Assembly: GCA_964017185.1 (NCBI GenBank)
Contig: OZ024875.1
Location: 26,793,456-26,857,455, forward strand
Direction of reading: 5' to 3'
DNA from: Rugalucina vietnamica
Lineage: Eukaryota; Mollusca; Bivalvia; Lucinida; Lucinidae
Length of the DNA stretch: 64,000 nucleotides
The notes below the pieces were generated by a model. The model did no database searches, had not been told where the DNA came from, and saw only the letters and a list, made by a program, of their open reading frames with translations. Of the stretch, positions 6,598 through 60,600 are shown piece after piece; position 1 is the stretch's first letter, and the number at the start of each line of letters is the position of its first letter. The translations under genes and the position numbers were made by a program.

Positions 6598-8061
6598 AGC
6601 TCACCTGAGCCGTTAGGCTCACAAGGTGAGCTTATAGGATGGCCATGATCCGGCGTCCGTCCGTCGTCGTCCACCATTTTCAAAGATCTTCTTCTCTGAA
6701 ACCGCTTGGCCAATCAAAGCCAAATTTTATATGAAGCATCTATAGGAAGGGGGAACCAATGTGTTTATAAATAATCCAGGTCACATGACCAAGATGGCCG
6801 CCATGCCCATATATGGTAAAAACCCTTCAAAATTCTTCTTCTCCGGAAACACTGGACCGATTTCAACGAAATTTGGCATGAAGCATCGAGGACTAGAGTA
6901 CTACAATGTGTTTATAAATTATGACCTTTGGATGACCTTGACCTATTTTACGGCAAGGTCAACATAGGTCGCCCATGCATTTGAATGGGGAAAATTGTTA
7001 AAATGTCATTTGAAAGGCAAATCTTGCAGGAAATGGGCAAATGGACTGAAGGTAAGTAATTCTGAAAAAAATTTGGACCCCAGGGGTTGGTCTGCCCCCA
7101 CCCCGGGGCAATATACATGTATATTACAAAAATATTCAAAGATCTTCTTCTCTGAAACCACTTGGCCAATCAAAGCCAAATTTTATAGGAAGCATCTATG
7201 GGAAGGGGGAATCAATGTGTTTATAAATGATCCAGGTCACATGACCAAGATCGCCACCATGCCCATATATGGTAAAAACCCTTTAAAATTCTTCTTCTCC
7301 TGAACCAATGGACCGATTTCAACAAAACTTGGCATGAAGCATTGGGGACTGAAATACTACAATGTGTTTATAAATTATGACCTTTGGATGATCTTGACCT
7401 ATTTTACAGCAAGGTCAACATAGGTCGCCAATGCATTTGAATGGGTAAAACTTTTAAAATGTCATTTAAAGTGAATGTCTTGCAGGAAATGGGCAGTAGG
7501 ACTGAATATTAATGATTCTGAAAAAAATTGGACCCCAGGGGCTCATTTGCCCCAGCCCCGGGGCATTATACATGTATATTACCATAATATTCAAACATCA
7601 TCTGCTCTGAAACCTCTTGGCCAATCAAAGCCAAATTTCATGTGAAGCATCTATAGAATGGGAGAATCAATGTGTATATAAATAATCAAGGTCACATGAC
7701 CAAGATGGCCACCATGCCCATATATGGTATAAACCCTTGAAAAATCTTCTTCTCCGGAACCGGTGGACCGATTTCAAAGAAACTTGGCATGAAGCATCGA
7801 TGACTCAAGTACTACAATGTATGTATAAATCATGACCCTGTGATGACCTTGACCTATTTTACGGCAAGGTCAACATGGGTTGCCTATGTATTTGAATGGG
7901 TAAACTATTAAAATGTCATTTGAAGGGAAAAACTTGTATGGTCAGTATATTGATTATTCTGAAGAAAAAAATGGCCCAAGGGCTTCATGGGACTATTTTC
8001 TATAACATTCGTATATACAGCAGATCTCAGGTGAGCGTTTACAGGACCATTGGTCCTCTGG
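6598..8061 (+). mobile_element. AGCTCACCT-family repeat element, copy 1 (about 1.46 kb)
   Basis: It starts with the hairpin AGCTCACCTGAGCC / GGCTCACAAGGTGAGCT and ends CTCAGGTGAGCGTTTACAGG then ACCATTGGTCCTCTGG, so both ends carry GCTCACCTGAG in opposite orientation. The body is about three diverged tandem monomers of about 440 bp, each with CTTGGCCAATCAAAGCCAAA, GGTCACATGACCAAGATGGC, CCCATATATGGTAAAAACCC and TGACCTTGACCTATTTTACG. Short open frames run through the monomers, but they do not resemble transposase or any known protein. I know the family from bivalve genomes; its transposition class cannot be told from sequence alone. Confidence 0.85.
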
Positions 8062-11396: not shown

Positions 11397-12907
11397 AGCC
11401 GGAGGCTCACAAGGTGAGCTTATAGGATGGCCATGCTCCGTCGTCCGTCCATCCACAATTTCAAAGATCTTCTCCTGAAACCGCTTGGCCAATCAAAGCC
11501 AAACTTCACGTGGAGCATCCTTAGGTAGGGGGAACAAAAGTTTATATAAATGGTCCAGGTCACATGACCAAGATGGCCACCATGGCTATAAATAGCAAAA
11601 ACCTTTTAAATTCTTCTTCTCCAGAACCAGTGGGCCGATTTCCACGAAACTTGGTATGTAGCATCGGGGACGCGGGCCCATCATAGTTTATATAAATCAT
11701 GACCCTAGGATGACCTTGACCTATTTTACGGCAAGGTCAACTTAGGTCGCCAATGCATTTGAATGGGAAAAAATGGTAAAATGCTATTGAATGGGTAAAA
11801 CTTACTGGGAATAGGCAAATGGACAGAAGATTAATGTTAATAGAAAATTTTAGCCCCTGTGGGGTTGTCTGCCCCTGCCCCGGGGCTATATACATGTATA
11901 TGACCATAATATTCAAACATCATCTTCTCTGAAACCGCTAGGCTAATCGAAGCCAAACTTCATTTGGAGCATCCTTGGGAAGGGGGAATGAAAGTTTATA
12001 AAAATGGTCAAGGTCACATGACCAAGATGGCCGCCATGGCTATAAATAGCAAAAACGTTTAAATCTTGTTCTTCAGAACCAGAAGGCCTATGATTTTGAA
12101 ACTTGGTGTGAAGCATCTGGGAATGGAGCATTACAAAATTTATATAAATCATGACCCTGGGATGACCTTGACCTATTTTACGGCAAGGTCAACTTAGGTC
12201 GCCCATGCATTTGAATGGGAAAAAACAGGAAAATGTCATGTAATGGCAGAAAACTTGCTAGGAATGAGCAAATGGACAGAAGATTTATGCTTATGAAAAT
12301 ATTTTAGGCCCGGGGGTTGTCTGCCCCTTCCCCGGAGCTATATACATGTAGATGACAATATTATTCAAACAGCTTTTTTCTCTAGAAACTGCTTAGCCAA
12401 TCAAAGCCAAACTTTATGTGGAGCATCCTTAGGAAGAGGAAATGAAAGTATATATAAATGGTCAAGGTCACATAACCAAGATGGCCGCCATGGCTATAAA
12501 TAGCAAAAAATTTTAAAAATCTTCTTCTTCAGAACCAAAAGGATTAACCCTATGATTTTGAAACTTTGCATGAAGCATTAAGGAACGGAGGTCTACAAAA
12601 TTTGTATAAATCATGACACTGGGATGACCTTGACCTATTTCATGGCAAGGTCAACTTAGATTGCACATGCATTTGAATGGAGAAAATTGTTAAAATGTCA
12701 TTTGAAGGACAAAATTTGCAGTTAATTGGCAAATGAACTGAATTTTTATGATTTGAAAAAGACATTGACTCCAGGAGTTATTCTGACCCTGCCCGAGGGT
12801 TATATACATGCATTGTACCATTGTAGTCTAACAAGTTTATTGGTACATGTATATATCTCAGGTCTCAGGACTCAGGTGAGCATTTACAGGACCATTGGTC
12901 CTCTGGT
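11397..12907 (+). mobile_element. AGCTCACCT-family repeat element, copy 2 (about 1.5 kb)
   Basis: It has the same ends as copy 1: AGCTCACCTGAGCC hairpin at left, GGTGAGCATTTACAGG and ACCATTGGTCCTCTGG at right. Three monomers are present, but of a different subfamily (GGCTATAAATAGCAAAAACC replaces CCCATATATGGTAAAAACCC). This points to an older or separate amplification. Confidence 0.85.
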
Positions 12908-26715: not shown

Positions 26716-28943
26716 GCTCACCTGAGCCATTAGGCACGGCTCACAAGGTGAGCTTACAGGATGGCCATGATCAGGCGTCCGTCCGTCGTCCGTCCGTCCG
26801 TCGTCGTCCACAATTTTCAAAGATCTTCTCTGAAAGCGCTTGGCCAATCAAAGCCAAATTTTATATGAAGCATCTATGGGAAGGGGGAACCAATGTGTTT
26901 ATAAATAATCCAGGTCACATAACCAAGATGGCCGCCATGCCCATATATGGTAAAATCCTTCAAAATTCTTCTTCTCCGGAACCACCGGACCGATTTCAAC
27001 GAAACTTGGCATGAATCATCTGAGACTGGAGTACTACAATGTGTTTATAAATTATGACCTTTGGATGACCTTGACCTATTTTACGGCAAGGTCAACATAG
27101 GTCGCCCATGCATTTGAATGGGGAAAATTGTTAAAATGTCATTTGAAAGGTAAATCTTGCTGGAAATGGGCAAATGGACTGAAGGTAGGTAATTCTGAAA
27201 AAAAATTGGACCCCAGGGGTTGGTCTGCCCCCACCCTGGGGCAATATACATGTATATTACAAAAATATTCAAAGATCTTCTTCTCTGAAACCACTTGGCC
27301 AATCAAAGCCAAATTTTATAGGAAGCATCTATGGGAAGGGGGAATCAATGTGTTTATAAATAATCTACGTCACATGACCAAGATGGCCGCCATGCCCATA
27401 TATGGTAAAAACCCTTCAAAATTCTTCTCCGGAACCACTGGACCGATTTCAACGAAACTTGGCATGAAGCATCGGGGACTAGAGTACTACAATGTGTTTA
27501 TAAATTATGACCTTTGGATGACCTTGACCTATTTTACGGCAAGGTCAACATAGGTCGCCCATGCATTTGAATGGGGAAAATTGTTAAAATGTCATTTGAA
27601 AGGCAAATCTTGCAGGAAATGGGCAAATGGACTGATGGTAGGTAATTCTGAAAAAAATTTAGACCCCAGGGGTTGGTCTGTCCCCATCCCGGGGCAATAT
27701 ACATGTATATTAGCCTTACAAAAATATTCAAAGATCTTCTTCTCTGAAACAACTTGGCCAATCAAAGCCAAATTTTATAGGAAGCATCAATGGGAAGGGG
27801 GAATCAATGTGTTTATAAATAATCCAGGTCACATGACCAAGATGGCCACCATGCCCATATATGGTAAAAACCGTTCAAAATTCATCTTCTCCTGAACCAA
27901 TGGACCAATTTCAACAAAACTTTGCATGAACCATCGGGGACTGAAGTACTACAATGTGTTTATAAATTATGACCTTTGGATGACCTTGACCTATTTTACA
28001 GCAAGGTCAACATAGGTCGACAATGCACTTGAATGGGGAAAACTTTTAAAATGTCATTTAAAGTGAATGTCTTGCAGGAAATGGGCAGTAAGACTGAATA
28101 TTAATGATTCTGAAAAAAACTATATACATGTATATTACATGTTCTCCTCTGAAACCGCTTGGCCAATCAAAGCCAAATTTCATGTGAAGCATCTATAGAA
28201 TAAGGGAATCGATGTATATATAAATAATCAAGGTAACATGACCAAGATGGCCGCCATGCCCATATATGGTATAAACCCTTCAAAAATCTTCTTCTCCGGA
28301 ACCGGTGGATCGATTTCGAAGAAACTTGGCATGAAGCATCGATGACTCAAGTACTACAATGTATATATAAATCATGACCCTGTGATGACCTTGACCTATT
28401 TTAAGGCAAGGTCAACATGGGTTGCCTATGTATTGGAATGGGTAAACTGTTAAAATGTCATTTGAAGGGAAAATCTTGTATGGACAGTATATTGATTATT
28501 CTGAAAAAATAATGGCCCAAGGGCTAAACCTGCCCCTATACTGGGACTATTTTCTATGTCGGGATGACGTCATACAGGTAAGATTGTTCATTCGGTGGAG
28601 GTACATTACTCGGTGTTTATCGTTATGCCTTACCAAATTTGGAGCGCAAAATATGGAATAAAAATGTAATTTTTTCATCAAAACATTGCATATTCTATTA
28701 GATTTCCGGTTATAATTTATTCCAAGGTAAGGAATGCGTAATATTTTGGTCATATTATGATTTTATTAGCCTCTGAAAGTAGTAAATGCATAGCGATAAT
28801 GACCGAGATTACCACCTCCACCGAATGAAGAAAATAGAGAGAAAGGTGTCCGATATTGATTTCTTTTCACGGAAGAGTACCTTGCCGACCTGCCCTATAC
28901 AGCAGATCTCAGGTGAGCGTTTACAGGACCATTGGTCCTCTGG
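26716..28943 (+). mobile_element. AGCTCACCT-family repeat element, copy 3 (about 2.2 kb, expanded)
   Basis: It starts AGCTCACCTGAGCC and ends CTCAGGTGAGCGTTTACAGG, ACCATTGGTCCTCTGG. It belongs to the same subfamily as 6598-8061 but has one more monomer, so unequal exchange has changed the monomer number. Near the right end it is interrupted by a small element at 28587-28832. Frames such as 27128-27553 simply read through monomers and recur at 6995 and 27581. Confidence 0.85.
28587..28832. mobile_element. Small inverted-repeat element nested in copy 3
   Basis: The left end TTCATTCGGTGGAGGT pairs with the right end ACCTCCACCGAATGAA, and pairing continues weakly inward (TCGGTGTTTATCGTTATG against CATAGCGATAATGACCGA). 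Comparison with the uninterrupted element at 7970-8030 shows that extra sequence has been inserted here. Confidence 0.75.
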
Positions 28944-33100: not shown

Positions 33101-36100
33101 GATGTCCACTGAGCCATTTTCATGATGTCTATTGATTAAATTTACGGATGTCTGTTTTCATGATGTCTATGATTGATTCTTATGGTGTCCACCGCTAATT
33201 TTCAGAATGTATGCTGTTTTATTCTATCATGCCTGCTCCATTTTATTCAGGCTGTCTACTGAGAAATTTCAGGATGCCTACTTAGCGATTTTCATGCTGT
33301 CTACTGAATGGTTTTCAGGCTGTCTACTGAATGATTTTCAGGCTGACTACTGAATGATTTTCAGACTGTCTGTTGAGTGATTTTCAGGATGTCTACTGAA
33401 TGATTATCAGGCTGTCTGCTGAATGATTTTCAGGCTGACTACTGAATGGTTTTCAGACTGTCTGTTGAGTGATTTTCAAAATGTCTACTGAATGATTTTC
33501 AGGCTGCCTACTGAATGATTTTCAGGCTGACTACTGAATGATTTTCAGACTGTCTGTTGAGTGATTTTCAAGATGTCTACTGAATGATTTTCAGGCACTC
33601 TATTGAATGATTTTCAGGCTGTCTGTTGAGTGATTTTCAGGATGTCTACTAAATGATTTTCAGGCATGCTACTGAACGATTTTCAGGATGTCTACCATAT
33701 GATTTTTAGGCTGTCTACTGAATGATTTTCAGGCTGGCTACTTAATGATTTTCAGAAATTTTCAGGATGTCTACTGAGCGATTTTCATGCTGTGTACTGA
33801 ATAATTTTCAGGCTGTCTACTGCATGATTTTAAGGCTGTCTACTGTATGATTTTCAGGCTGTCTACTGAATGATTTTCAGGATATCTGTTAAGTGATTTT
33901 CAAGATGTCTACGGAATGATTTTCAGGCTGTCTGTTGAGTGATTTTTAGAATGTCTACTTAGTGATTTTAGGCCGTCTACTGAATGATTTTCAGACTGTC
34001 TACTGTGTGATTTTCAGGATGTCTGCTGAGTAATTTTCAGGATTAATTTTCAAGACTTTTAGGACTGAGTGAGACTGAGTCAGGATTTTTAGTACTGACT
34101 GACGGACTGATTTCATGACTGAGTGATTTTCTACCATATGATTATCAGGCTGTCTACTGAATGATTTTCAGGCTGGCTACTGAGTGATTTTCAGGATGTC
34201 TACTGAGCGATTTTCATGCTGTCTACTGAATGATTTCCAGGCTGTCTACTGAATGATTTCCAGGCTGTCTACTGAATGATTTTCAGGCTGTCTTCTGCAT
34301 GATTTTCAGGCTGTCTACTGAATGATTTTCAGGCTGTCTACTGAATGATTTTCAGGCTGTCTACTGAATGATTTTCAGGCTACATGTATCTGTTAAGTGA
34401 TTTTCAAGATGTCTACGGAATGATTTTCAGGCTGTCTATTGAGTGATTTTTAGAATGTCTACTTAGTGATTTTTATGCCGTCTAGTGAATGATTTTCAGA
34501 CTGTCTACTGTGTGATTTTCAGGATGTCTGCTGAGTAATTTTCAGGATTGATTTTCAAGAATTTTAGGACTGAGTGAGACTGAGTCAGGATTTTTAGGAC
34601 TGACTGATTTCAGGACGGAGTGATTTTCAAGATGTTTACTAATTGATTTCAGGGTATCTACTGAATGATTTTCAGGCTGTCTGCTGAATGGTTTTCAGGC
34701 TGTCTACTTAATGATCTTCATGCTGTCTGCTGAATAGTTTTCAGGCTGTCTACTGAATGATTTTCAGGCTGTCTGTTGAGTGATTTTCAGGATGTCTACA
34801 TAGTAATTTTAGGCCATCTACTGAATGATTTTCAGACTGTCCACTATGTGATTTTCAGGATGTCTGCTGAGTAATTTTCAGGATGTCTTCTGAGTGATTT
34901 TCAGGATGTTTACTTATTAATCAGGCTATCTACTGAATGATTTTCAAGCTGTCTACTACTGAGTGATTTCCAGGATGTCTACTGAGTGATTTTCAGGATG
35001 TCTACTGAGTGATTTTCAGGATGTCTACTGAGTGATTTCCAGTATATTTACTGAGTGATTTCAGGATATCTAGTAAATGATTTTCAGGTTGTCTACTGAG
35101 TGATTTTCAGAATGTCTACTGAGTGATTTTCAAGATGTCTACTGATTGATTTACATGATGTCTACTGACTGATTGTCAGGATGTCTAATGAGTGATTTTC
35201 AGGCTGTCTAATGACTGATTTCCAGGATGTCTACTAGTTGATTTTAGGATGTCTCCTGAGTGATTTTCAGTCTTCTGAATGATTTTCAGGATGTCTACTG
35301 ATTGATTTTTGGATGTCAAATGAGATATTTTCAGGATGTTAACAGTGATTTTCAGGATGTCTACTGATTGATTTTCATGCTGTCTACTGACAGATTTTCA
35401 GGATGTCTACTGAGTGATTTTCAGGCTGTCTTCTGATTAATTTTCAGACTGTCTAGATTTTCAAGCTGTCTGCTGAGTGATTTTCAAGATGTCTACTGAA
35501 TGATTTTCAGACTGTCTTCTGTATGGTTTTCCTGATTTCTAATGATTAATTTTCAGGATGTCTACTGATTGTTTTTCCGGATATCAGACTGTCTGCTGAG
35601 TGATTTTCATGATGTCTACTGACAGATTTTCAAACTGTCAACTGACTGATTTTCAGGCTGTCTACTGATTGATTGTCAGGCTGTCTACTCAGTGATTTTC
35701 AGGATGTCTACTGAGTGATTTTCAGGCTGTCCACTGAATGATTTTAGGACGTCTACTGAATGATTTTCAGGCTGTCTACTGAATGATTTTAAGGCTTTCT
35801 ACTGATTTATTTACTGGATGTCTGTTGATTGATTTTCAGGTTGTCTACTGATTGATTTTCAGACTCTCTACTGAGTGATTTTCAGGATTCTACTGAGTGA
35901 TTTTCAGGATTCTGCTGAGTGATTTTCAGGATTCTACTGAGTGATTTTCAGGATGTCTTCTGAATTATTTTCAGGCTGTCTACTGACTGATTTTTAGATC
36001 CAATGTTCGATTTTCAGGATGTCTTTTGCATGATTTTCAGGATGTCTACTGACTGATTTTAAGAATGTATACTTTTTAATTTTCAAGATGTCTACTGTTT

Positions 36101-39100
36101 TATTTTCTCGATGTATACTGTTTAATATTCAGAATATATACCCTTTAATTTTCATGGTGTCTAGTGTTTAATTTCCTTGATGTCTAGTGTTCAATTTTCA
36201 TGATGTCTACTGTTTGATTTTCAGAATGTCTTCTATTTGATTTTCATGATATCTACTGTTTAATTTTCAGAATGTCTATTGTTTGATTTTCATGGTCTAC
36301 TGTTTAATTTTCTTGGTGTCTTCTGTTCAATTTTCAGAATGTCTACTGTTTGATTTTCAAGATGTCTACTGTTTAAGTTTAATTTTCTTGATGTATACTG
36401 TTTAATGTTCAATTTGTCTATAGTTTAACTTTCATGGCGTCTACTATTTAATTCTATTGATGTCTACTGTTTACTTATCATGATGTCTATTGTAAAATTC
36501 TCTTGATGTCTGCTGTTTAATTTTTATGATGTATACTGTTTAATTTTTTGGTGTATACTGTTAATTTTCAGAATGTCGACTGTAACTCAGACTTTTGCTG
36601 TTTGATTTTCAGAATGTCTACTATACAATTTTCAGAATGTCTACTATACAATTTTCAGAATGTCTACTATACAATTTTCAGAATGTCTACTATACAATTT
36701 TCAGAATGTCTACTATACAATTTTCAGAATGTCTACTGTACAATTTTCAGAATGTCTACTATACAATTTTCAGAATGTCTACTGTACAATTTTCAGAATG
36801 TCTACTATACAATTTTCAGAATGTCTACTATACAATTTTCAGAATGTCTACTGTACAATTTTCAGAATGTCTACTATACAATTTTCAGAATGTCTACTAT
36901 ACAATTTTCAGAATGTCTACTGTACAATTTTCAGAATGTCTACTACACAATTTTCAGAATGTCTACTGTACAATTTTCAGAATGTCTACTATACAATTTT
37001 CAGAATGTCTACTATACAATTTTCAGAATGTCTACTATACAATTTTCAGAATGTCTACTGTACAATTTTCAGAATGTCTACTATACAATTTTCAGAATGT
37101 CTACTATACAATTTTCAGGATGTCTACTATACAATTTTCAGAATGTCTACTATACAATTTTCAGAATGTCTACTATACAATTTTCAGAATGTCTACTGTA
37201 CAATTTTCAGAATGTCTACTATACAATTTTCAGAATGTCTACTATACAATTTTCAGGATGTCTACTATACAATTTTCAGGATGTCTACTATACAATTTTC
37301 AGAATGTCTACTATACAATTTTCAGAATGTCTACTATACAATTTTCAGAATGTCTACTATACAATTTTCAGAATGTCTACTATACAATTTTCAGAATGTC
37401 TACTATACAATTTTCAGGATGTCTACTATACAATTTTCAGGATGTCTACTATACAATTTTCAGGATGTCTACTATACAATTTTCAGGAATGCAGAAGTGA
37501 AGTACGACAATAACCTATCTGTTATAACAGAGTGCATAGAAACCTCAGGGAAAGTAGACCAAGTGTACCCAATGTCACAGATAAAATTGACAGCACTAAT
37601 ACCGGCCAGCTTTTGTGTAAGTTTGCCTACAGTTTGTCAACTTCACAGTGCTAATAAAACACCAGAAGAATAGAGATGTCCATAGATGTTTAAAGATAAA
37701 TTTGTTTCTTTGGTTTCATGCTTTTAAAGTTACATGTATTTGTCATTTGTCATCACTGTGTCACATTTCCACAATTGTTTTCATTATTTCATGATATACT
37801 CATGTTGTTCGTATTTGCTTTTTTTTTCTTGGCAAAAACTGTATCTTTTTCATCTTTTGCATTTCACTGTTTGTAAATTTTGATTTGTTTGTCTTTCTTA
37901 TATGAGCCATGACATGAGAAAACCAACAATGTGGTTTCTGAACAGGTCCGACACAAACCGAGCTGTATAAGCACAGAAGATGGCTAGAGGCTGTAAATTT
38001 TGGATTTCGAAAGTAGAGGAATTGTACTATCTGTGTAGCGAAAACAAAGGCGGTGATCAGCTTCGCAGTTACTGCGAAGCTGATCTGCGCCTTTGTTTTC
38101 GCATATGCAGATTGTTGGTTTTCTAGTGCGGCGGCTCATATTTCTTTCCATTTGTGTTTCAGTCAATGTTGAGTGTGATCATGCCTGACCCACATCAACA
38201 TACAGACAAACTGGACAAAGTTGTACAGTATCTAAAATATGGCGAGGGGAACTTTGACTATCTCACAAATGTTGATAGAGAAATAATGAAAAAATCTTTG
38301 AACAGACTGAAAACTATTGCGGAGGTATAATGAAGTAATATTTCATTGAACAAATTAAAGCGCATTCCCCCCACCCCCCACCCCCCCCCCCCACCCCCCA
38401 AGATACTGTGTACATGTATAATATTTATAATTTAACTTGATGACTGCCATGGCTAACATTTAATACAATTATAAAAAAAATTACAAAAAAAAAAACCCAA
38501 AAAACAAAACCAAAAAAAAAAAACAACAACAAACAACTCATATTTGGATATCATAAATAGAAGATCTTACACGAGTGGTTATTTCATATGAAATTTATTA
38601 AACAAGCCTCTAGCGAGTTTAATAAATTCCATATGAAATGACCATGAGCGTAAGATTCCTTTTGTCATATGACTTTTAAAATAGGATTTTATTGTCTTCA
38701 AAGTGGATATATTTTCAATGAGGATTAACATTGTTGTCACGGACATCGTCAATTTAATACACGTGTGGTCATAACACTATTTATTACATGACGTTATCCA
38801 CTGGAAAACAGCGACGTCATATGTTAAATGCATTTTTGAGGATACTGTGACCTTTCAGCAAAGGGCCGAGCTTTCCATTCCTGTATACTACATGTACTTA
38901 TTCAAGGTATTTAAGATTATAAGAAGACATTTTGTTACAGCTGGGAGCATCAAGAGGTGTGCGTCTAGTCATTGATGCAGAGTATACCTATCTGAACCCT
39001 GCTCTGAGGTTCTTTGCCTTAGCTATGATGCTGGCTTACAATACATCCTCACCACTAGTAGCTTACACATACCAAAACTATCTCAAGGTAGCTGGTTTTG

Positions 39101-50474: not shown

Positions 50475-51393
50475 ATATTATTTCAATGACAACACAAATA
50501 ATCTTATACATGTACAAATTCACTGGATCATATGAGACATTAATATTTCAAACATCAACTAAATACATTAACATGCAATTTAATGTTTGAGCAGAAAGTC
50601 ATGGTATGGCTCATTCAATTACTTTAAACAAGAAAATTCATGATTTAAAATTGTGGTTTGGAAAAGCAAAATTCTGTTTTGGTTTTAGCTCATTCAGCAG
50701 TTTTGATTTTTTTTTCAGTTTAAAATCACTTGACATGTGGTTAATTTAAATATTTCTAAAATCTTAGTTTCAAAACATTTTAAAATTCAGTGTAAACCAC
50801 GACTGCAGAGTGCTGCCTAAAGTTTCAAAGATTTAGCATCTTTGAAGCTGTTTGGTTCTATAACCCATATACCCACTGCCTAAAACGTCAGTGGTTTTAC
50901 TATATTTTGAGTGGTTTAATTCCTGTCCTAGAATTTCTTTCCTGTCTTCGAAGCTGTTCAAATCTTTTATCAGTTTTGCCATAATTGATAAGCTTTGGTT
51001 CCACTGATTATAACAATGGTTTAAAACTTAATAAATGGTTTCAATGGCCATCTTTGAAACAGCTCGTTTCTGTTGATGACAACTGCAGTCAAAAATATCC
51101 TTGTCTAAAATTAGCAGTTTTGTTGCTTCTTGGTGCTACTACATGTCCATATCCACAATTGCTATCTACAGCTTCAACTGTATGTTAAAAACTCCCGTGG
51201 CTTTGCCAACTCTGGCCGTATTTGAATTCTGCCCTATTACACTATCTATAACTGCAGTCTAAAATTTGAATCATTTAGTCTAAAACTTGAGAGGCTTTGT
51301 CATGTTTGAGGCTGCCGGTAGCTTGTTTAATGTAGAAGGTATTGTGAAGTGTCTCTCTTACACTGTATTTGCTTTACGACTAGGATTTCCTGC
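50475..51393 (-). other. Probable 3' region of the minus-strand gene, with decayed copies of its last coding segment
   Basis: Phrases such as CTAAAACTTGAGAGG, CATCTTTGAAGCTG and GTTTTGCCAT recur in diverged form (about 50830-50860, 50940-50990, 51020-51065, 51190-51215, 51280-51315). These match the reverse complement of the final codons at 51490-51540. The nearer copies at 51394-51489 are intact. No further exon was seen. Confidence 0.5.
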
Positions 51394-51537
51394 CTAGAAC
51401 TTGAGAGGTTTTGCCATCTTAGAAGCTATTCAGTTATCACCCTAAAACTTGAGAGGTTTTGCCATCTTAGAAGCTATTCAGTTATCACCCTAAAACTTGA
51501 GAGGTTTTGCCATCTTTGAAGCTGCCTGTACCTTGTT
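51394..51537 (-). repeat. 48-bp tandem triplication that includes the stop codon of the minus-strand gene
   Basis: Copies begin at 51394, 51442 and 51490 (plus-strand CTAAAACTTGAGAGGTTTTG then CCATCTT). The 51490 copy is the functional end of the gene (codons for MAKPLKF and TAG on the minus strand). The other two lie beyond the stop codon and carry the same codons and stop, one with CTAGAAC in place of CTAAAAC. Confidence 0.88.
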
Positions 51538-54600: not shown

Positions 54601-57600
54601 AAAAGCTTTTGGAGGCAAATTATCCCCAAAAGACAGGTGTTTTGCTTCTTGTTTTATCAGTATACATGCCTGTGAATGTGTTGGTTTCACAAGACACAGT
54701 TTATTCCATAGCCACGTTTGTTGAACTGCTAATTGTCAATATACTTGCAGAGTATTAGTGTTTTTATCAGTCAGAATTACAAGGTGTTTAATTAATCTTG
54801 ACACAAAGAGGATTTTTCCCCATTTAATCACCAAGCATGTAATTAGAAAATATCAAACCATGAGAAAGATCAAATCATCATCATATCATATTCTGAAGAT
54901 TAAATATGGATCAAGGCATAATCAATAAAACGTGCTTTCAGCTAATATTGAAACATCTGTACATTTAGATTCATGAGGTTGCTGTGGGAAAATTGGGAAT
55001 CAAAAAGACCCTTATGCCTTTGCATAGTGATATGAATGCGAAGTTTCAGAACATTCTTCCTACCATATAGGATTTCCAAGCTGAGTGCCGTCTTTGATCA
55101 CAGCACATTGATGTTTAATGTCTATATGCAAGTCAATGATCAAAAATACACTGGGACCTACTTTACTGAGTGGCTAAGCAACAAAGAAACAGGGATTTTA
55201 TGACATTTGCAGCGATTTATTTTGCATCTACATGCTAATGCACCAGTCATTTGTATTCATGGCCCCTATTGGACCAGGGAATGACAGGGCTTTTGACTTT
55301 TCAATTTTTAAAGCCCTGTATTTCCATTACCTCAGTATCCTCTGATTTCTTTTTCTCTGGTACCTCAGGTGTACAGGTAACTACCATCAACAGACCAACC
55401 ACTGATCGTCCCCTAGAATACAGGAAATATGCTATATACAGATGAATAAAATTGTATCATCAGTTTTGATCATCAGCAAAAACGTCTAGTTTCATCTGGT
55501 CAAGGATACCAGCATTGATATCTCAAGTAGTAAAATGTCTGAATTGAAAGAAGGATTTGACTGTTGGTTCCTGGCTTTATACAAATGGAAACAGACTATG
55601 CCATGTTAGAATAGATCGATCAAACACAATTTTCCATTCATTAACATTCGCTAGGTCCTCAGAGTAGTGTTGAAAACTGAGGGCGTAGCCCGAGGTTTTC
55701 TACACTACCCGAGGAACAGAATTGAATCTGCTCACTCATGGATTAATTGCACAAAACTGAACAGGCCATTGGCAAGTTAATGATTCATTTTTAATCCACA
55801 CCACTCAAAGTCTTTGTAAATTTGTTTGTTGGTTTCGGTTTTGTGGTTTAACATCTCAGTCAACAATTTTTTGTTCAAGTTGGGATGGAACCACCCCTTT
55901 CTGTGTATTGACCAGTACTATGTGGATTAATGTGCCTTGCTGAAGTCTCTTGGTCTCTTTTTTGAATCAGCAGAAGCGGGAGATAATTTTAAGTATAATT
56001 AGACAGGCTAACTAACAAGCCAACATGCCCTGCTGCAGTTAACAAGCTAGCAATCCTATCATACTTTCCCTACTTTCATGGTATTTGTGATTGCCAAATA
56101 CTGTTTTGTAATTTAGCGGGCTCACCTCTCCGCCTTGAGAGCAGTAGTTCTGTCTGGTATAATCTCTGACTCTTGAAACATCATACATAGCAACTCCATC
56201 AATAATGTCACAAACCTGAAATCATAGAACAAAATCATACATAACAACTCAATCAATAATGTTACAAACAAGGAATCATATGACATATAACATCATATAT
56301 GAACCTCAACGCGACAAAATGTACCTTCGGACATTCTGACATTCTTCTAGTACAAAGCAGCAAAAAGCGAAAAAAATATGTAAGATGCGTTACAGAAATA
56401 ACACTGTATTTGTTATCTTTGAACACTGGGCTACCAAACGAATGAGTTCTAAAACATATTTATTATCAATATTTTGAGTTATCTGCCCTTGTTTTAGCCC
56501 ATAATACACTTAATTTTCCTATATGTATCATTAAACGGTAACCATAGCAACCGCATCATCATAAAAATAGACAAAATAATTACGACAGATTGCCTGTAAG
56601 GTTGTTATGCTTCTGTCTTAGCAATAGGTTCTGACCAGTGCTTAAACAGTTTTAAGCAAATGCATCTAGTTTTGTAAGCTCTGCTAACATGCAGAAATGC
56701 ATTACGCATTTTTGACGTTATTTTTCAGGACAATGACGACTGTAGGATTCATACAGTAAATTGGCCATAACTCACAAAATAAATGAAATAATCTGGTCAA
56801 ATAAAGAGTAACGGACTCTAGAAACATAAAACATTCAGCGTAACTTTGTTTGTCTAATACTCAAATAATTGTCCGAAGGCACATTTTCTCACGTTGTGGC
56901 CCATATAACAACTCCATCAATAATGTCACAAACCTGGAATCATATGACATATAACATCATACATAACAACTCCATCAATAATGTCACAAACCTGAAATCA
57001 TATGGCATAAAACATCAATATAACAACTTCATTAATAATGTCACAAACCTGAAATCATATGACATATAACATCATACACATAACTCCATCAATAATGTCA
57101 CAAACCTGAAATCATATGGCATATAACATCATACATAACAACTCCATAAATAATGTCGCAAACCTGGAATCATATGACATATAACATCATACATAACAAC
57201 TCCATCAATAATGTCACAAACCTGAAATCATATGACTTATAACATCATACATAACAACTCCATCAATAATGTCACAAACCTGGAATCATATGACATATAA
57301 CATCATACATAACAACTCCATCAATAATGTCACAAACCTGGAATTATATGATATATAACATCATACATAACAAGTCCATCAATAATGTCACAAACCTGGA
57401 ATCATATGACATATAACATCATACATAACAACTCCATCAATAATGTCACAAACCTGGAATCATATGACATATAACATCATACATAACAACTCCATCAATA
57501 ATGTCACAAACCTGAAATCATATGACATATAACATCATACATAACAACTCCATCAATAATGTCACAAACCTGGAATTATATGACATATAACATCATACAC

Positions 57601-60600
57601 AACAACTCCATCAATAATGTCACAAACCTGGAATCATATGACATATAACATCATACATAACAACTCCATAAATAATGTCGCAAACCTGGAATCATATGAC
57701 ATATAACATCATACATAACAACTCCATCAATAATGTCACAAACCTGGAATCATATGACATATAACATCATACATAACAACTCCATCAATAATGTCGCAAA
57801 CCTGGAATCATATGACATATAACATCATACATAACAACTCCATAAATAATGTCGCAAACCTGGAATCATATGACATATAACATCATACATAACAACTCCA
57901 TCAATAATGTCACAAACCTGGAATTATATGATATATAACATCATACATAACAACTCCATCAATAATGTCACAAACCTGAAATCATATGGCATATAACATC
58001 ATACATAACAACTCCATAAATAATGTCGCAAACCTGGAATCATATGACATATAACATCATACATAACAACTCCATCAATAATGTCACAAACCTGAAATCA
58101 TATGACTTATAACATCATACATAACAACTCCATCAATAATGTCACAAACCTGGAATCATATGACATATAACATCATACATAACAACTCCATCAATAATGT
58201 CACAAACCTGGAATTATATGATATATAACATCATACATAACAAGTCCATCAATAATGTCACAAACCTGGAATCATATGACATATAACATCATACATAACA
58301 ACTCCATCAATAATGTCACAAACCTGGAATCATATGACATATAACATCATACATAACAACTCCATCAATAATGTCACAAACCTGAAATCATATGACATAT
58401 AACATCATACATAACAACTCCATCAATAATGTCACAAACCTGGAATTATATGACATATAACATCATACACAACAACTCCATCAATAATGTCACAAACCTG
58501 GAATCATATGACATATAACATCATACATAACAACTCCATAAATAATGTCGCAAACCTGGAATCATATGACATATAACATCATACATAACAACTCCATCAA
58601 TAATGTCACAAACCTGGAATCATATGACATATAACATCATACATAACAACTCCATCAATAATGTCGCAAACCTGGAATCATATGACATATAACATCATAC
58701 ATAACAACTCCATAAATAATGTCGCAAACCTGGAATCATATGACATATAACATCATACATAACAACTCCATAAATAATGTCGCAAACCTGGAATCATATG
58801 ACATATAACATCATACATAACAACTCCATCAATAATGTCACAAACCTGAAATCATATGACATATAACATCATACATAACAACTCCATCAATAATGTCACA
58901 AACCTGAAATCATATGACATATAACATCATACATAACAACTCCATCAATAATGTCACAAACCTGAAATCACATGAAATATGAGCCTTCGCGTGAGAAAAT
59001 AAACTATCTGGGTTTCCGACCAGGCCCGACACAGACCAACCTGTACAGTCACAGAAGAAGGCTAGAGGCTTGAAATTTTGGATTTAAGAAGAGGGATTAT
59101 ACTATCTGCGTAGCAAAAACAAAGGCACTGATCAGCTGTGCAATTACTGCACACTTGATCTAGGCCTTGGGTTTCGCACATGCAGATTGTTGGTTTTCTG
59201 ATGTGGCGGCTCTATTATATAAAATCATTGTTTGTTAGTTCATATGACTTGCTGTGTTATATCTGAACTGGGTTAACATAACAATCCAGTTCCTCTGCCA
59301 GTTTAACAGTTAACATTCTTCTACCCTTGAATGACAACTGCTCTTCTTCAATCAGCAGAAGAGAATACAATCAAAGTGACCATGTGACGTCACTGTACTT
59401 AGTGGTAAAGTTAATAGCTGGGATAAAATCAAAATCGACACAACATTTCTTTACTACATATTACGTTTCATGATTGCTCCTTTCTTCAGATAGAAAATAA
59501 ACAGCTAAGTCATACAGAGTTACGCCATATACTCGCAAACCAAATTTTCACTACATAAGTCTTTCACAACATTAAACATAAAAGCTTTTGAAAGTTACAG
59601 TCAAAGACACATCACTGTGACTTTATCAAACTTGCATGAGCCTTTGTGGTTGTCCAAAATCTTTGTGACCATAAGGTCATTTAATTATCATAACCTTAAA
59701 ATTGTAAGGTTAAAAACACCAAATTGTGTATACTAAACTTACTCAAATTCATCAGCCCTTTTACTGGCATCTGTAGGTCTGGAAATATCTGTAGACTTAG
59801 GTAGATAATGTTGTAGCTGCTTCACAAAGAACTGGAACATATCCGAATTCTGAAACACAAAATACACATATACATATTGTTTCTTACATGGCCATCGATT
59901 TGTATATTTCATTCAATTTCTTCATGCTTAATTTTCTAATTAAGTTAATCCAACCACATTTAACTTGGTTTTGTTTAAACTATATTATTTGTTGTTCATC
60001 TAAGATATATGCATAATAACAGACAATACAAAGGATATGAATATGAGCCAAAGGCTTGCCCCGTGTCATTTTCTTGTTAAGTTTGTTAGTTAACCAGTAT
60101 CTAGTACCCATCTTTTCACCAATAACTGACATTAAAAACAAGAATGAGCTGGCCACAAGAGCTCTAATAGAGAAAGTGGAATGACAGGTGCATTAGAAGC
60201 AAAGCTGCTTATAGAAAATGATATTTTAAAACTAAATGTATCAATTCTTGAGATTACCTGTATTTTGGTAGATATGAATCGAAAATATGGTCAGTCCCAG
60301 TAATTTACAAGAATGTAAAATTGTTGACTGCGGCCCCAAAGAATTGAACACAAAACAATATTACAAAGACTACCATTGACATACCTTCCAAAACAATCTT
60401 TTGAGCACAAAGTTTTTCTCCGTTGCCACCTTGAGTTCATCCAGGAGTTCATAGATCTGTTCCATACTGTTGTCAGGGTTCAATAACTCCTGCTTCAGTT
60501 GGTGAAATAACAGAGCTGTTTTCTCCCTAAAAATTGGGAACAATACTAGCTTTTTACATTTTTAACAAGTTTTACTGTATAAACTTATCACATTGCAAGA

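Follow-up and report, generated by a model that had tools for sequence, protein, structure and literature searches.

The name "mirages" was given to tandem repeats lying across an exon-intron boundary in the amphioxus Adh3 gene, and such repeats were also found in the amphioxus globin genes BflGb6 and BflGb9 (PMC3087553). According to that report, their units measure 10-160 bp, the cores of the arrays are homogenised and their edges diverged, BflGb6 occurs in haplotypes of 6 and 3 units, and RT-PCR suggests regular splicing. TnC and PGBD5, the latter a triplication of 3 x 108 bp, were added to the amphioxus mirages in a further paper (PMC3902484). Elsewhere, the human IFI6 (6-16) gene is described as having a minisatellite with multiple splice donors (Turri 1995, as cited in PMC4526556), and in potato RdRp an intron was gained by tandem duplication of an intron-exon boundary (PMC4974935). 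Among the open-licence papers listed we found no report of mirages, by that name, outside the lancelets; of those given by a mollusc-directed search, the two that contain the word are the lancelet papers cited above.

The locus described here lies in a 64-kb stretch of DNA, the whole of which is called the window, on contig C7 of a 1.09-Gb genome. Like the amphioxus mirages, it is a minisatellite-like tandem duplication over an intron-exon boundary (of acceptor or donor type) beside an intact exon, with many copies that keep the AG or GT, a homogenised core, and diverged edge units. It differs from them in its host, a DUF4551 gene of what we infer to be another animal group, and in being split by a dispersed repeat element; it has 36 units against the 6 and 3 of the BflGb6 haplotypes, and its splicing is judged by homology, whereas that of the amphioxus genes was followed by RT-PCR. 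With IFI6, in the cited account, it shares minisatellite units that carry splice sites; there, however, these are on the donor side and are reported as used donors, whereas the acceptor decoys in the DUF4551 gene are putative. As in potato RdRp, the duplicated segment spans the intron end and the exon start, but the potato case involves two copies and created a new intron, whereas the DUF4551 protein gains nothing. Exon-boundary arrays are a kind already known as mirages, so the idea of a decoy array, advanced in the initial annotation of this DNA, is not new in kind. The DUF4551 array is a large further mirage, a kind known from lancelets, in an apparently new host group. We think it quite probable that it arose by tandem duplication over the acceptor junction, was amplified, and is normally spliced out.

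The host gene and its native exon

The minus-strand host gene is a member of Pfam DUF4551 and, we presume, of the C12orf56 family. In the exons read from the window, the profile pieces 251-285, 285-421, 517-578, and 577-609 are ordered along the strand. No second DUF4551 copy was found in the genome, where 4 of 4 family matches lie in the window neighbourhood (11 of 11 candidates scored), and a search of solved structures gave no significant match (2 hits, E = 0.96 and 1.5). The two exons on either side of the array are as follows:

59744..59849, minus strand: upstream exon of the DUF4551 gene, ending in ..GAATTTGA before GTAAGT
56126..56215, minus strand: the 90-nt native DUF4551 exon, which begins in phase 2 and whose first 39 nt form the last "unit" of the array

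The protein joined from these exons aligns with the DUF4551 profile (285-421) without gaps across the junction (126.6 bits, E = 2.1e-36). The native exon contributes 23.8 bits of this score (102.8 without it), and masking only its first 12 residues, FVTLLMELLCMM, lowers it by 15.8 bits to 110.8, which supports the copied frame as the true reading frame. The frame beginning with FVTLLMELLCMM and the preceding phase-2 intron are thereby supported, and, as far as homology tells, so is the splicing of the exon on its 56215 side, on which the initial annotation had relied. The other open frame of this exon (VCDIIDGVAMYD...) was rejected, as it reaches 107.4 bits against 126.6, little gain over the score without the exon. 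Because the FVTLLMELLCMM residues score in a family-wide profile, the exon should be older than the array, and the difference in score between the two frames marks the exon start as family sequence rather than satellite. As to intron gain by tandem duplication, no new intron was seen: the joined protein is free of gaps and insertions relative to the DUF4551 family at the junction.

When eight DUF4551 exons of the window were tested for copies of their own, matches were obtained for exon 56126-56215 and for the last exon. The latter carries a second minisatellite (51393..51523, minus strand; 48 bp x 2.7) in which the end of the coding sequence is repeated together with its stop codon; as 48 is divisible by 3, translation ends at the first of these stops.

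Structure of the array

The intron side of the native exon contains the following features:

56241..56298, minus strand: exon-proximal degenerate unit, 53/58 (91%) identical to the consensus; its AG has become TT, and it lies 54 nt, not 58, from the native junction
56300..56903, no strand assigned: inserted repeat element of about 604 bp, bordered by TA on each side, whose inverted terminal arms (56296-56333 and 56870-56907) are 84% complementary
56905..58980, minus strand: 58-bp tandem array, 36 copies (Tandem Repeats Finder: period 58, 35.8 copies, 95% matches)
58977..59216, no strand assigned: second dispersed element, about 240 bp, abutting the outer edge of the array; limits from BLAST matches

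Read in the sense of the gene, the array unit consists of the final 19 nt of the intron, up to and including its AG, and then 39 nt of exon start, rather than the roughly 35 coding bases first estimated. The initial annotation had taken the satellite, in about 36 units, to be made from this intron-exon boundary, and in both respects it was right: there are 36 units in 56905-58980, all 36 of which read AG/GTTTG, with the AG directly before the copied coding bases, and the consensus unit and the native exon are the same at 38 of 39 positions, the sole difference (TTG CTA / TTG TTA) being synonymous. An exact comparison had been called for in case the similarity was limited to a few bases; this alignment shows that it is not. 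The invariant AG is in itself little informative, because 12 of the 19 intron-derived columns are invariant. When the 90-nt exon was compared with the window by BLASTN, 37 full or partial copies of its first 39 nt were obtained, of which 36 belong to the array and one lies at 56231-56269; identity is 97.4% over 39 nt in 20 of these (E = 5.6e-14 each) and 87.5-96.6% in the other 17. The extent originally given, 56126..58975, does hold an exon-copy array, but the array itself occupies 56905-58980, and 56216-56904 consists of the degenerate copy, through which the reading frame is open, and the inserted element. The unit of direct tandem repeat accordingly runs across the splice junction, the copies lie in the intron beside an exon that is intact by homology, and a concerted core (31 in-register units at about 96-97%) is accompanied by the diverged exon-side unit, all of which are features of a mirage.

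Searching the 1.09-Gb genome with two units, which gives a lower bound, did not find the 58-bp unit elsewhere (19 of 19 matches at the array locus; 2 of 2 first-look candidates scored), and in the same lower-bound search the repeat was not found at other loci, as it would be in a dispersed satellite DNA. Exact-pattern scans returned 0 matches for a motif from the unit in viral contigs and 0 for a window repeat motif in prokaryote genomes and viral contigs.

Predicted splicing consequences

That the intron has dozens of decoy 3' splice sites holds in the sense of potential sites, an AG/G being present in 36/36 units, but these are weaker than the native site and distant from it, and their use is possible rather than proven. 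On a 3' splice-site matrix made for vertebrates, the score is 7.62 for the native acceptor and 4.35-5.14 for the 36 decoys. Of the 16 bases that precede the CAG, 12 are pyrimidines in the native site and 8-10 in the decoys; 25/36 decoys have C at -4 against T in the native site, and the remaining 11/36 share its TTTCAG/G. The decoys lie 718-2746 nt upstream of the native acceptor, and under exon definition an acceptor at such a distance is too far away to share the donor as part of a normal-sized exon. Use of a decoy is predicted to truncate the protein, as the initial annotation had proposed, with a stop in 36/36 cases after 11-24 codons (17 codons on in 31, 14 in 2, 11 in 2, and 24 in 1). 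The GTATGA said to follow about 22 coding bases in each unit is present in 34/36, though it comes 29 nt into the copied coding part in 33 and 28 nt in 1, and is absent in 2. It stands at the same place in the native exon, and as a donor it reaches a score of 3.2, compared with 5.87-9.76 in six candidate donors from the gene, again on a vertebrate-made matrix.

Because the decoys are weaker and distant, the near copy is without an AG, and the putative micro-exon donor is weak, we think that the array copies are normally removed with the intron. The native acceptor would be favoured by a strong donor 90 nt downstream, through exon definition, and by the best polypyrimidine tract of the 37 sites, and the loss of the AG from the sole nearby copy would leave it no close competitor. 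Any leak to a decoy would end in a premature stop and presumably in nonsense-mediated decay.

There is a slim chance that the array is instead a working splice-decoy device, whose units sequester U2AF or U2 and so reduce exon inclusion or set its timing, or else channel transcripts into decay, with array length tuning the output. Such a device would have at its disposal 36 acceptor-like sites in native exonic context, each leading to a stop, and the IFI6 minisatellite, whose units serve as splice donors in the account cited in PMC4526556, lends it a parallel. It is at odds with the weakness of the decoys on the vertebrate-made matrix and their distance of at least 718 nt from the native acceptor, and with the diversity of the units, which is 0.063 in the exon-derived and 0.065 in the intron-derived part; the two parts being equally diverse, there is no visible constraint on the copies. 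The recent gain of 15 units documented below suggests tolerance rather than tuning, and the published mirages, by RT-PCR, seem to leave splicing undisturbed (PMC3087553).

Growth of the array and its repeat neighbourhood

One block stands out within the array:

57082..57901, minus strand: 820-bp block that matches, base for base, the sequence at an offset of 870 bp (15 units)

Among the 31 in-register units, mean identity is 96-97% at lags other than 15 units and 99.1% at lag 15, where 13/16 unit pairs are identical. Together with the 820-bp identity, this pattern points to a recent block expansion of about 15 units, and 820 identical bases at an offset of 870 hint at length instability of the array between haplotypes or cells. 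The same identity might be expected if the length of the array were, wholly or partly, an artefact of assembly; this is very unlikely, as the units outside the repeated block differ among themselves and the array has flanks of its own.

As to the direction and order of events, we infer that a 58-bp segment straddling the acceptor of the DUF4551 exon (19 nt of intron and 39 nt of exon) was duplicated in tandem, and that unequal exchange or slippage would have multiplied it until there were 36 copies, including a recent gain of about 15 units. The TA-flanked element, which sits between the exon-side copies and the main array, splits the array and probably cut off two exon-side units from homogenisation. 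Besides the window copy, 39 near-full-length copies of this element, at 91-96% identity and on many contigs, are among the matches listed (40 scored of 2496 first-look candidates). In the ten copies whose edges were compared, that of the window included, the two flanking bases agree, being TA in nine and AA in one. BLASTN of the exon found no 58-bp unit inside the element. Stretches similar to the second element, 58977-59216, occur elsewhere in the window.

Inclusion of the units as 29-nt micro-exons, which the AG and GTATGA spaced 29 nt apart in 33/36 units had brought to mind, is poorly supported and hardly credible in view of the weak donor, the frameshift that 29 nt would cause, and the same GTATGA in the native exon. 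Capture of the exon start from a pre-existing satellite or mobile element, to which the dispersed elements flanking and splitting the array might seem to point, is just as remote and was rejected, given that the exon start scores in the family-wide DUF4551 profile, that the unit was found at one locus only in the lower-bound genome search, and that the splitting element is free of any unit.

Other tandem repeats were observed in the window and the genome. A 23-bp array of more than 4 kb (33246-37488) has units that also contain TTTTCAGG, and three frames are open for 301-337 codons in its last kilobase. A tandemly repeated element of about 455 bp per unit, present in 2.7-2.9 copies with a similar consensus at 6679-7936, 11467-12686, and 26824-28087 and at L077 592-1894, carries the motif GGTCACATGACCAAGATGGC in its shown consensus units. 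The mitochondrial contig C47 (L020-L022), at 30,680 bp about twice the usual size of animal mtDNA, contains tandem arrays that repeat at intervals of about 181 and 214 bp; its COX1 match, of 447 codons, has AGG 8 times and AAA at a conserved Lys site. Compared with amphioxus, the size of the genome (1.09 Gb), the length of this contig, and the use of AGG as a codon suggest that the host is no cephalochordate.

Boundary copies at other exons of the genome

A survey of further exons took in 53 exon loci, namely, 4/4 DUF4551 matches, the best 30 of 133 kinesin matches, and the 19/19 listed ABC matches; the sample, made up of top-scoring matches from two large families together with DUF4551, is non-random. 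Direct copies of part of the exon were found within 1.5 kb at 9/53 loci at E <= 1e-5 (kinesin 6/30, ABC 3/19, DUF4551 0/4) and at 11/53 at 1e-3. One locus (L054), whose match is an additional copy belonging to the L043 gene, was dropped, for an independent count of 8/52; two loci that pass only at 1e-3 (L034, L055) are not counted. With dinucleotide-shuffled flanks, a copy was found in the flank in 0/265 cases at E <= 1e-5, a filtered control that is fair only for copies outside the exon and its 60-nt margins. The same rule would remove the copy of L060, which falls within the domain match, and reduce the count to 7/52. A cruder control at 1e-3, which kept matches in the unshuffled exon and its 60-nt margins, gave 15/159. 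Random flank windows of the same size had a copy in 61/212 cases at E <= 1e-5 and, in another draw, in 113/318 at 1e-3. Exon windows thus carry copies no more often than flanking sequence generally.

All 8 of the counted copies span a splice junction, the boundaries having been read by eye from the ends of the domain matches and GT/AG; four are of acceptor type (L028, L039, L043, L060) and four of donor type (L030, L053, L061, L066). The AG or GT is kept by the copies in 7/8 genes and lost in L060. Seven of the loci, in kinesin and ABC-transporter genes (L028, L030, L039, L053, L060, L061, L066), have single direct junction copies in the adjacent intron, upstream for acceptors and downstream for donors, and five of these copies (L030, L053, L060, L061, L066) are degenerate, with 72-78% identity. 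The kinesin gene of L043 (L076 3997-4938; C10:32699497-32700438) has six tandem copies of ...cttacag plus the exon start, 120-170 bp apart, of which the last is the real exon. The TTACAG end is retained throughout the six; the five extra copies end in TTCTTACAG like the native one, and three of the five share the native TTTGTTCTTACAG. Since the kinesin decoys end like the native copy, weak decoys are no general rule.

In this light the 58-bp array looks like the extreme of a seemingly ordinary process. Whether exon-boundary duplication is pervasive in this apparently non-cephalochordate genome, with approximately one exon in seven having a recognisable junction copy in the neighbouring intron, we regard as evenly balanced. 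If that reading is true, part of the growth of introns would come from exon edges, and array length, changing fast, would commonly supply decoy splice sites and material from which new exons could arise.

Implications

With the DUF4551 array, an oddity of lancelets is seen in many copies in the genome of an apparently different animal, and the survey gives a preliminary rate of 8/52 exons. How the spliceosome passes over dozens of near-perfect acceptor copies could be tested naturally here, since a single genome holds both an array with weaker decoys, in the DUF4551 gene, and one with native-like decoy ends, in the kinesin gene. More generally, boundary arrays of this kind bear on the origin of new introns and exons.
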